DNA from: Allobacillus halotolerans
Lineage (GTDB): Bacteria; Bacillota; Bacilli; Bacillales; Alkalibacillaceae
Direction of reading: 5' to 3'
Assembly: GCF_018967645.1 (NCBI RefSeq)
Contig: NZ_JAHLZF010000007.1
Location: 14,933-78,932, forward strand
Length of the DNA stretch: 64,000 nt
Positions 8,868 through 61,803 of this stretch are shown piece by piece; the first letter of the stretch is position 1, and the number at the start of each line of letters is the position of its first letter. The notes beneath the pieces were generated by a model. It made no database searches and had not been told where the DNA came from. It was given only the letters and a program-made list of their open reading frames with translations. The position numbers and the translations under genes are program-made.

Positions 8868-9124
8868 AATCGAATAAACGTAAATGCCGTAGGAGAAGAG
8901 TACAGGTTGAACACCGACAGAGAGGGAAACAATTGCTGAAAGTTTCCTCGGATTGAAAACTTGGAAGGTCGCTCTGAATTGGCAGCTTCTTTGAAATGAT
9001 AGTAGAAGAAGACGGGAAAACCGTTAACAGGTGAGATGCACAGTGTAATTATGCTGTGAACAAAGGTGGTACCGCGAAATTTAAATCTTTTCGTCCTTTT
9101 TATAAGGATGGAAAGATTTTTTTA
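8868..9124 (+). ncRNA. T-box riboswitch, valine (valS leader)
   Basis: A tRNA-sensing leader. The T-box sequence AGGTGGTACCGCGAAA is at about 9064-9079 and overlaps the antiterminator. A terminator follows: AAATCTTT at 9083-9090 pairs with AAAGATTT, ending in a T run. Stem I runs from about 8890, with GGAAAC/GTTTCC as an internal helix. The probable specifier triplet is GTC at 8968-8970 (followed by a G), a valine codon, pairing with the tRNA(Val) anticodon. Uncharged tRNA(Val) should favour antitermination and valS expression. The specifier position was judged by eye. Confidence 0.92.
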
Positions 9125-24721: not shown

Positions 24722-24838
24722 CTATGGTAATGTTTTATTGTTATGCAAATTGTCGCACCAATTTGCTGCAACCGCGCAGAAAAGGTTACTAAACTCATCA
24801 CCGATGAGTACCTTTATGGCGAGTCTAAGTAAACGAGG
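24722..24838 (+). ncRNA. Ribosomal protein L21 leader
   Basis: The gap before rplU contains a structured leader: GCAAATTGTCGCACCAATTTGC is an inverted repeat (GCAAATTG/CAATTTGC), followed by the CAACCGCGCAGAAAAGGT segment and a second hairpin ACTCATCACCGATGAGT. Position and this layout match the L21 autoregulatory leader of Bacilli, where L21 is thought to bind its own mRNA. A possible promoter starts with TTGACA at 24706, inside the end of rng, but its -10 box is poor. Confidence 0.75.
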
Positions 24839-25925: not shown

Positions 25926-26207
25926 GGCTTTGTTAAAGTCCGTTGTTGATATTGTGATCCGCTATCGGTGGACGCTTTTACCCAAAGGGCATAAGGGCGA
26001 CATCTGCGATAAATCGCAGTGTCTTCTTTACCGCGGGCACGGCTCGAGCTTATCCCGTGACGACCCGGACGGTCTAATGTCGACGTTGGTCACAGGACGT
26101 GACCGCTTTTAGTCGACCAGGAGTCGCCACCTTCGCTTCTCACAATTCAACAACTCCATGCTCTATGCTGTATCATAAGAAAATCAACACTAAGTTTTAA
26201 CAAAGCC
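25926..26207. mobile_element. Complete 282-bp MITE-like palindromic element
   Basis: The ends are perfect 12-bp inverted repeats, GGCTTTGTTAAA at 25926 and TTTAACAAAGCC ending at 26207. They are flanked by a perfect direct 8-bp duplication ATTATTTA (25918-25925 and 26208-26215), the mark of transposition. Inside, 25942-25973 (GTTGTTGATATTGTGATCC...) is inverted-repeated imperfectly at 26123-26154, so the element can fold into a long hairpin. No protein is encoded; the 60-codon frame within it is a chance reading. It interrupts the rpmA-spo0B gap. It must be moved by a transposase from elsewhere; 8-bp duplications occur in ISL3, IS256 and IS1595-type families, so the donor family cannot be named. 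Confidence 0.88.
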
Positions 26208-28280: not shown

Positions 28281-28313
28281 AAGTGTAGATTGAAATGAAA
28301 GGAGTCATTGAAT

Positions 28314-28868
28314 TTGAGAATTCATATTGTTCGAAGAGGTGAAACAATTAAGTCGATTGCCGAGAAATATGGTCTTTCCTTTCAAGAAGTTGCTCGTATG
28401 AATAAACAAATTGCCGACCCGTTTGAACTCATGCAAGGGATGAAATTGCGCGTTCCCATTGAGCGCGAAAAGCAAGTAGAAAAGCAAGTAGAAAAGCAAG
28501 TAAAAAAGCAAGTGAGTTCTAGTTCAGCAAATCAGAGTGATGACGCAAATCATACGGATACCTCTATTGAGCAAAGAGAGCAAAAAGAGCATAAAGAGTT
28601 ATCCAATGACCAACTGACTCGGATGGAACCACCTGAAAGAACAGCAGACTATCTTCCTGAAATTCAAGAGGATGAGCGTGTGTGGCAGATCCCTTCCCCA
28701 TTAGTGAAAAGCCAAAATCACGCATATTCCTATCCAGACGGATATGCACCTATGACACAACCCCTGTACACAGACATGACTTTTGTTCAGGGATGGGGTT
28801 CACTTGAACAACAGCAGCAGCCATTTATTTACTACAATCCGTGTATGGGTTATGTCTATTCTTACTAA
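28314..28868 (+). CDS. safA: SafA-like spore coat morphogenetic protein, short form
   Basis: 184 residues, about half the length of B. subtilis SafA. A LysM domain (2-49, RIHIVRRGETIKSIAEKYGL ... GMKLRVPI) would bind the spore cortex surface; a KQVE repeat (about 54-68), an acidic linker and a tyrosine-rich tail (FIYYNPCMGYVYSY) follow. SafA directs inner coat assembly and docks on SpoVID, encoded at 7.5 kb. TTG 28314 is chosen: AAAGGAG lies nine bases upstream, versus three for the TTG at 28308. coxA follows as in B. subtilis. Confidence 0.82.
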   Translation: MRIHIVRRGETIKSIAEKYGLSFQEVARMNKQIADPFELMQGMKLRVPIEREKQVEKQVEKQVKKQVSSSSANQSDDANHTDTSIEQREQKEHKELSNDQLTRMEPPERTADYLPEIQEDERVWQIPSPLVKSQNHAYSYPDGYAPMTQPLYTDMTFVQGWGSLEQQQQPFIYYNPCMGYVYSY

Positions 28869-28945
28869 CCAGTTATTACAAATAAATTCAATCAAATAAA
28901 TGTGTGGTTTTCCATCAATTTTCACCACGTTAAATGTATGGTTAG

Positions 28946-28977
28946 CACCTCCTTTCTCAAACTAATGAAAGGAGGTG
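28946..28977 (+). promoter_or_regulatory. Hairpin hiding the coxA ribosome binding site
   Basis: CACCTCCTTTC (28946-28956) and GAAAGGAGGTG (28967-28977) form a perfect 11-bp stem with loop TCAAACTAAT. The 3' arm is the coxA Shine-Dalgarno sequence; with the next bases, GAAAGGAGGTGAT is complementary to the entire 3' tail of 16S rRNA. The 5' arm equals that rRNA tail. Folded, the site is closed to ribosomes. There is no T run, so it is a translational rather than a transcriptional device. Confidence 0.8.
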
Positions 28978-28982
28978 ATTTT

Positions 28983-29462
28983 ATGATTAAAAAAACGATA
29001 TTCCTTACACTAATAGCGATCATTATGACCGGATGCACTTGGGTCAATCCAGAAAAGGATAAACAAAGAACAGATGGTGGGCAAACGGCAGAGATGCAAA
29101 AGGACCAAAAGGTGACAGATGAGGAGTTAATCCGTTATAATTTATATTCGAACCCAACCGAATATTATGAGCAAAAAAATTTAGAGCGATCCATGAATAA
29201 TTCAAGTGAGAACACTAACGATGAAGAAGGGCCTGGAAACAAAACCGAACGGCATATTTATTATGAGTTGATGCAATTGGAAGAAGTACGGCAAGTTGGA
29301 CTGGCTATCAGAGAAGACAAAATCTTTGTTGCGATTAATTTAGAAAGTCGCTCGGATCCGAAAGAAACCGTCCAACGCGTTAAAGAAATTGTTGAAGACA
29401 TCACCGATCGCTCTGATATAATTGTGGATGTAAACCCTGATTTTGATTCACGGATAGAATAA
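28983..29462 (+). CDS. coxA: Sporulation lipoprotein of the YhcN/YlaJ family, CoxA-like
   Basis: 159 residues. The signal peptide MIKKTIFLTLIAIIMTGCTW has a lipobox ending at C19, so it is a lipoprotein. The C-terminal part (about 88-155, HIYYELMQLEEVRQVGLAIR ... EDITDRSDIIVDVNPDF) is the YhcN/YlaJ domain of spore cortex proteins. Position after safA and before yebC matches coxA (yrbB), which encodes a cortex protein in B. subtilis. ATG 28983 follows the very strong ribosome binding site that is sequestered in the hairpin at 28946-28977. Confidence 0.85.
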   Translation: MIKKTIFLTLIAIIMTGCTWVNPEKDKQRTDGGQTAEMQKDQKVTDEELIRYNLYSNPTEYYEQKNLERSMNNSSENTNDEEGPGNKTERHIYYELMQLEEVRQVGLAIREDKIFVAINLESRSDPKETVQRVKEIVEDITDRSDIIVDVNPDFDSRIE

Positions 29463-49239: not shown

Positions 49240-49512
49240 AATTAATTGAATAGTGATCAATACCAATGAGGGAAAAAGTAGCAAAGAAACACATATGACA
49301 GAGAGGGTTTGCCATGGCTGGAAGCAAACTCATATGTCCTTTGTGAAAGACATTCCGGAGGTGCCTTGCCGAATGTAAAAGTAGGTATAGGCCGCGAGAA
49401 GCGTTAATGAAATGAAGTGAAAGCAACTCTCTTAGGTTGCTTTAATCAGGGTGGCAACACGGGGTAAACTCGTCCCTATCAATTGGAATGCGGATTGATA
49501 GGGATTTTTTTA
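49240..49512 (+). ncRNA. T-box riboswitch, hisS-aspS leader
   Basis: The T-box proper reads AGGGTGGCAACACGGGG at about 49448, followed by a strong terminator TCCCTATCAAT...ATTGATAGGGA and a T run. In Stem I, ACATATGA pairs with TCATATGT and GTTTGC with GCAAAC. The candidate specifier is in GAAAGACATTCC (49345-49356): GAC (Asp) at 49349 is followed by A, while CAT (His) at 49351 is followed by T. T-box specifiers are usually followed by a purine, favouring GAC. Charged tRNA should close, uncharged open, the operon. Confidence 0.9.
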
Positions 49513-52677: not shown

Positions 52678-52870
52678 ACAAAGTTGAAACAGAGCAATCC
52701 TAATGTGTTCGTCTTCTCCGTCGTACGTTTTGACCGAACACTTTTATGTAAGGGAGTCCGGCGTTTCTGTGTGGCGTATATGCCTTTTATAGGACATACA
52801 AAGCACAGAACAGGACACCCACCTGCCTGGAGCGGGTTCAAAACATTAAGGAGGAACGGCACAATTGGGA
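52678..52870 (+). ncRNA. bsrA: 6S RNA (6S-1/BsrA type)
   Basis: Binds the sigma-A RNA polymerase holoenzyme and mimics an open promoter. The 5' TCCTAATGTG and 3' ACATTAAGGA segments pair to close the molecule; GTTTTGACCGAACAC and GAGCGGGTTCAAAAC form the inner closing stem, with the open bubble between, and the CACCCACCTGCCTGGAGCG stretch is the familiar 3' strand. GAGTCCGGCGTTTC and GGCGTATATGCC lie in the apical arm. About 190 nt, the expected size, and found directly after aspS as in B. subtilis. Exact ends are estimated. The 80-codon frame across it is an artefact. Confidence 0.88.
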
Positions 52871-52882
52871 TTGTGTACATAC

Positions 52883-61526: not shown

Positions 61527-61803
61527 AGAAGCAAAAATTCACGAAATCGATGAAGGAAACGAGTAAATGACAGAATCACTTCAAGAGAGGCGTCTTCCTG
61601 GCTGTAAAAGACGCTAAGTGAATGTCATTGAACGCTATTCCAGAGAGCGGCTAATCCCCGCCGGTCCACTCCGTTACGGTGTTTGAGCTGATAGGCTTTA
61701 TTTGGTTATCATTCTGAATGGGAAGAATTGACCAAGGCAAAGTCTATAATCAGGGTGGCACCGCGGATAACCGTCCCTACATCATACTGTAGGGGCTTTT
61801 TTG
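61527..61803 (+). ncRNA. T-box riboswitch, alanine (alaS leader)
   Basis: The T-box AGGGTGGCACCGCGGAT is at 61752-61768, followed by the terminator CCCTACA...TGTAGGG and a T run ending about 61802. Stem I includes the GCGTCTT...AAGACGC hairpin near 61590. The probable specifier is GCT at 61634, in GAACGCTATTCC, an alanine codon followed by A. Uncharged tRNA(Ala) should allow readthrough into alaS. Confidence 0.93.

Follow-up and report, generated by a model that had tools for sequence, protein, structure and literature searches.

In Allobacillus halotolerans, the Shine-Dalgarno (SD) sequence of a coxA-like spore lipoprotein gene is buried in a perfect 11-bp hairpin, which is likely to be an insulator against read-through, one with a forespore promoter inside it. 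The hairpin lies in a stretch of 64,000 nucleotides (the window), to which all coordinates below refer unless another source is named. In the arrangement we propose, the coxA promoter would straddle the 5' half of the hairpin, with its -35 element just upstream, the anti-SD sequence in the spacer and the -10 element in the loop. Transcription entering from the gene before coxA (SafA-like here, nadE in relatives) would yield a long RNA whose anti-SD is paired to the SD, and from this read-through RNA we infer a translational block that would leave coxA untranslated outside the forespore. Where sigma-G is active, in the forespore, transcription would start just 3' of the loop, giving an RNA in which the anti-SD is absent and a very strong SD is free. 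As such a hairpin would act solely on read-through RNA, it would need no ligand, small RNA or heat to open it and, as its effect would be to silence that RNA, it should count only at forespore genes that another gene reads into. The elements concerned are as follows:

28308-28868, + strand: LysM/SafA-like gene, co-directional with coxA, with a Pfam LysM match and a weak SafA match under the cut-off; predicted source of read-through.
28936-28940, + strand: predicted sigma-G-type -35 element, GTATG (GHATR); most leaders of the family have GNATG, with a spacer of 17 or 18.
28946-28956, + strand: hairpin 5' arm (anti-SD), CACCTCCTTTC, within the spacer separating -35 from -10; read directly from the sequence and from folds.
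28957-28966, + strand: hairpin loop, TCAAACTAAT, read directly from the sequence; columns CA.A.TA(A) invariant in 22 aligned relatives.
28958-28964, + strand: predicted sigma-G-type -10 element, CAAACTA, inside the loop at spacer 17; CANANTA invariant in relatives.
28967-28977, + strand: hairpin 3' arm, GAAAGGAGGTG, containing the SD; the extended SD occupies 28967-28979.
~28971 (about 28969-28972), + strand: predicted forespore mRNA start, inside the 3' arm, placed 7 nt past the -10.
28979-28982, + strand: T run (T4) 3' of the stem; some relatives have a longer run, which may act in termination.
28983-29462, + strand: coxA-like gene, the putatively controlled gene, encoding a Spore_YhcN_YlaJ lipoprotein of 159 aa (Pfam PF09580, E 3.4e-9, over the gathering score).

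The original prediction of a perfect hairpin over an exceptional ribosome binding site was borne out by sequence and folds alike. CACCTCCTTTC is fully complementary to GAAAGGAGGTG over 11 bp, the stem ends five bases 5' of the coxA ATG (28983), and it is present in both the minimum free energy and the centroid folds; the global fold of the 141-nt stretch scores only z = -1.59 because the stem makes up a small share of it. Pairing of the coxA SD to the GGAUCACCUCCUUUCU tail of 16S rRNA yields -23.8 kcal/mol over 14 bp, the strongest value among 247 sampled genes of the same genome (median -10.8). The rRNA tail of the source genome itself was not found in its draft assembly, but two relatives, G016 and G008, have the identical tail, GGCTGGATCACCTCCTTTCT. 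Pairing of the SD region with the preceding 45 nt was scored against dinucleotide shuffles (a hairpin being called at p < 0.05); coxA in the source genome reached z = -4.4, and 149 control genes averaged -0.09. The strict pattern CACCTCCTT..AAGGAGGTG is present at one place in the source genome (reversed control: 0) and at 9 places over 41 genomes, compared with 0 control matches. The computed cost of opening the SD is 16.9 kcal/mol in read-through RNA vs ~3.6 kcal/mol in RNA from the internal start, and the modelled probability that the SD is unpaired rises only from 0.0006 at 37 C to 0.0043 at 65 C. In RNA arriving from upstream, the coxA SD is thus predicted by the folding model to be occluded, as in a hairpin that blocks read-through. 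No Rfam family matched the coxA leader stretch at the gathering threshold; the nearest matches to coxA are in Allobacillus saliphilus and A. salarius (78%).

What sets this hairpin apart from a simple lock is the content of its 5' half. The sigma-G consensus comprises GHATR, a spacer of 17 or 18 and CATNHTA; GTATG-17-CAAACTA fits it with one mismatch, in the -10 (CAAACTA vs CATNHTA), and the -35/-10 motif pair has a frequency of 1.4e-5 per position over 400 kb of the source genome. SASP and YhcN promoters of the family share these -10 variants (CAAACTA, CACAATA and CATACTA), and in SASP promoters from the family and the order CAAACTA and CACAATA hold the same position relative to the SD. The conserved CANANTA, with GNATG 17-18 nt upstream in most leaders, reads as a sigma-G-like forespore promoter, from which both the sigma factor and the start of transcription are deduced. 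A start near 28971 would probably leave coxA's own mRNA without the 5' arm, and the hairpin could not form in an RNA begun there, as that arm would be missing. The original prediction had named a start that removes the 5' arm as evidence against a regulatory lock, and the conserved promoter, with its predicted start at ~28971, makes such a start probable. Two points count against this reading: the one-base departure of the -10 from consensus, and a predicted leader that, at ~12 nt, is unusually short and begins at the edge of the SD. A sigma-G reading of the bases GAATAAA further upstream was dropped, as in relatives these bases are the end of nadE. In the B. subtilis forespore, high expression is reported for CoxA, YhcN and YlaJ (PMC11841064), and the late mother-cell timing that had been suggested for this lipoprotein is unlikely.

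Read-through into coxA requires a source, and the co-directional LysM/SafA-like gene is a candidate. Its stop codon lies 77 nt from the hairpin, and a terminator scan found none between that gene and coxA and none at the hairpin itself; coxA therefore has a co-directional upstream gene with no intervening terminator. In most relatives the upstream place is held by nadE, and a SafA-like gene is found there only in the source genus; since the hairpin is retained despite the different neighbour, it belongs to coxA and not to the gene before it. Positions 28885-28945 resemble a decayed nadE end (TTTCCATCA.TTTCAC..), which suggests that nadE was exchanged for the SafA-like gene in the source genus and that the hairpin survived the exchange.

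A protein search over 101 genomes, together with pattern and family searches, placed the coxA locus in 23 family genomes, and the SD/anti-SD hairpin is present 5' of the coxA start codon in all 23, spread over 12 genera. Loss of the upstream arm from relatives that keep the SD had been named as grounds for rejecting the lock, and the opposite was found, both being kept in every family genome. The proposed check on co-variation of the arms was likewise positive. In an alignment of 22 coxA leaders (A1), 96.8% of cells are paired (50-73% when the partner is slid), and 4/9 pairs carry double-sided, compensatory changes, a result matched by 0/500 shuffles. The loop sequence CA-A-TAA is invariant and, apart from the SD, is the best-conserved part of the leader. 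In relatives the 5' arm tracks the local SD: CACCTCTTATTTC accompanies GAAACGGAGGTG in most genera, and ATCCCC accompanies GGGGGTG in locus L215. On these comparisons, the arm is evidently matched to each species' own SD, not to the rRNA tail; of the idea that it mimics the 16S tail there survives a complementary arm, whose resemblance to the tail is a by-product of complementarity to a strong SD.

The same layout recurs at other forespore genes. The coxA genes have a mean pairing z of -4.90, alpha/beta SASP genes one of -2.50 and YhcN/YlaJ paralogues one of -1.73 (P = 2e-12, 5e-13 and 4e-6, respectively), set against the -0.09 of the 149 source-genome controls. A source-genome census, covering 400 kb plus pattern searches, found nine CCTCCT..AGGAGG places; five belong to YhcN/YlaJ or SASP genes, and in these the loop holds a sigma-G-like -10. 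In that genome the three YhcN/YlaJ genes all carry an SD/anti-SD stem enclosing a sigma-G-like -10, as do the two alpha/beta SASP genes examined and one gamma-SASP gene, and in relatives the SspP and CwlD genes show the same layout of hairpin and promoter. In typical cases the 5' arm ends where the -10 begins, that is, in the promoter spacer. Loose patterns (CACCTC..GAGGTG) searched genome-wide were near chance in many genomes, and only strict or scored tests were used; two pattern matches inside coding sequence (C84 and L189) were discarded as chance.

Whether a forespore gene carries the hairpin is associated with the orientation of the gene before it. Among the scored SASP, YhcN and coxA genes, it is found at 53/68 whose upstream neighbour is co-directional and at 0/14 whose neighbour is divergent (Fisher 3.5e-8), and among YhcN paralogues alone at 14/19 vs 0/14 (P = 1.4e-5), with the proviso that both P values are overstated, the scored genes and species being related and the divergent ones amounting to a few paralogue groups. 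Neighbours were classed by their longest open frame only; the coxA and YhcN sets were found via the window gene and so form a biased sample of the regulon. Some SASP genes with a co-directional neighbour are without the hairpin. Outside the family, 28 SASP and YhcN leaders had a mean z of +0.27 and showed the effect in a single case (L089); spoIIIG apart, wide use of the layout seems limited to the family that contains Allobacillus. It is an evenly balanced proposition that the family as a whole places anti-SD sequences in sigma-G promoter spacers wherever the upstream gene is co-directional, a regulon-wide and orientation-dependent insulation that would prevent synthesis of spore DNA-binding proteins and lipoproteins in the wrong cell.

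Amongst the other explanations, the best placed, though unlikely, is that the stem is the intrinsic terminator of the upstream gene and overlaps the ribosome site and promoter of coxA by happenstance. In relatives the stem follows close behind the nadE stop codon and is flanked by runs of A and T (AAAACACCTCC..GGAGGTGTTTT in L016, for example), and the hairpin may well provide additional termination in those with T runs. Against this, there is no terminator call at this hairpin, where the stem is followed by one A and only T4, and the SD is always part of the pairing. Termination is not a property shared by the group, as most SASP and YhcN hairpins of the same layout are without a T run, and it was rejected as the common function on these grounds.

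A signal-opened switch, in which the main coxA mRNA carries the whole hairpin until a protein, small RNA, ribosome or temperature opens it, was the original prediction and is now quite improbable. The lock that it described does exist, has high stability and is conserved, compensatory changes included, and a very strong SD beneath a perfect, conserved pairing is what such a switch would call for; the design as a switch that responds to a signal is the part that found no support. A conserved promoter-like element lies within the loop, and the -10 explains why the loop is as it is, whereas a sensor would not predict the same lock at unrelated forespore genes, tracking the orientation of their neighbours. 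In the model the stem stays shut up to 65 C, and an RNA thermometer was rejected on that account.

Very unlikely is a DNA site for a dimeric regulator of forespore genes (SpoVT-like, for instance) placed over the promoter; a perfect inverted repeat over the promoter, recurring at several forespore genes, would suit it, but the arms vary by gene and match each gene's own SD and flanks, unlike a shared operator, and no repeat is seen where the upstream gene is divergent, and this reading too was rejected. Chance, or a neutral by-product of a strong SD, is scarcely credible: SD-rich genomes do yield some complementary matches, as the counts in the pattern control indicate, but the control genes centre on z = 0, and retention in 23/23 genomes with compensatory changes contradicts it already.

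The proposed insulating hairpin of coxA is of a known kind, represented by spoIIIG and T4 gene e; its deployment at many forespore genes within a single family appears to be undescribed. A literature search (subscription papers lay outside its scope) returned nothing on point for coxA/safA with sigma G, for yrbA/yrbB or for hairpins of SASP genes generally. In B. subtilis, spoIIIG is described as having a hairpin of more than 20 bp that blocks read-through translation and cannot form in the RNA from its own promoter (PMC5942855). As with coxA, this forespore gene (sigG) lies behind a co-directional gene or operon and, as is proposed for coxA, its ribosome site is hidden in read-through RNA alone (PMC5942855); the spoIIIG stem, however, is longer and takes in bases of the -10, the promoter is of the sigma-F type and the product is a sigma factor, whereas coxA combines a compact 11-bp stem, a predicted -10 in a 10-nt loop and a predicted start at the SD with a structural lipoprotein as its product. 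In relatives, the 5' arm at spoIIIG lies just upstream of, and extends into, the sigma-F-type -10. When spoIIIG leaders were scored likewise as a positive control, the hairpin was called in 25/29 genomes across the order (p < 0.05), and the method therefore recovers the known case. In phage T4, the SDs of gene e (lysozyme), soc, 49 and I-TevI are hidden by hairpins in long early RNAs, and late promoters within the region of the 5' strand of the stem give late RNAs that are free of the hairpin and well translated (PMC3014915). The principle, a promoter in the 5' strand of the stem, is the same as that proposed for coxA, but the T4 switch is temporal where that of coxA would be one of cell compartment, the sigma factor is another and there is no known homology. 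RNA thermometers and sequestration of the riboswitch type share with coxA the occlusion of the SD by pairing; coxA differs in its stable, perfect stem and in the predicted promoter within the structure, and opening by a signal is unsupported.

Were the insulator reading correct, compartment specificity in spore formers would have two safeguards, the sigma factor that begins transcription and a hairpin that keeps RNA begun by any other sigma factor silent. SASPs bind and reshape DNA, and stray read-through in a growing cell could therefore be harmful. The orientation rule would offer a simple and testable reason why only some forespore genes carry the lock. The insulator reading would also make, of a rule known from individual examples (spoIIIG, T4 lysozyme), a compact sequence signature with which further genomes can be searched.

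The searches also turned up several loci beyond the SASP and coxA-type genes. An FMN-reductase gene (L184 1000-1037; G000:C9:49399-49436) has a CCTCCTATCT..AGATAGGAGG hairpin enclosing a sigma-B-like promoter, GTTTAA-N14-GGGAAA, with a co-directional gene upstream and a stem that is kept in two relatives. The same layout for a general stress factor, in this C9 case, is a hint that the principle may extend beyond sigma-G. SD/anti-SD stems also precede a DUF2619 (YqhV-like) gene (L186 1052-1095; G000:C45:143651), with a similar stem in the relative G001, and the gene of a small acidic repeat lipoprotein (L185 1034-1075; G000:C17:25933), with a possible AATACTA -10. A small conserved protein of ~95 aa with the pattern EVQ..Y..PEEFPEG.YG is encoded at L255, L256, L257, L258, L259, L265 and L267, and its gene has the sigma-G-like hairpin layout in several genera; two members scanned against Pfam and NCBIfam had no match, and from its leader this is probably an undescribed forespore protein. 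Elsewhere in the window there are ordinary RNA features, namely a 6S RNA, three T-box leaders, an L21 leader and a Bacillaceae-1 small RNA (positions, listed together: 52694-52875; 8878-9101; 49257-49480; 61541-61781; 24760-24836; 26061-26128).
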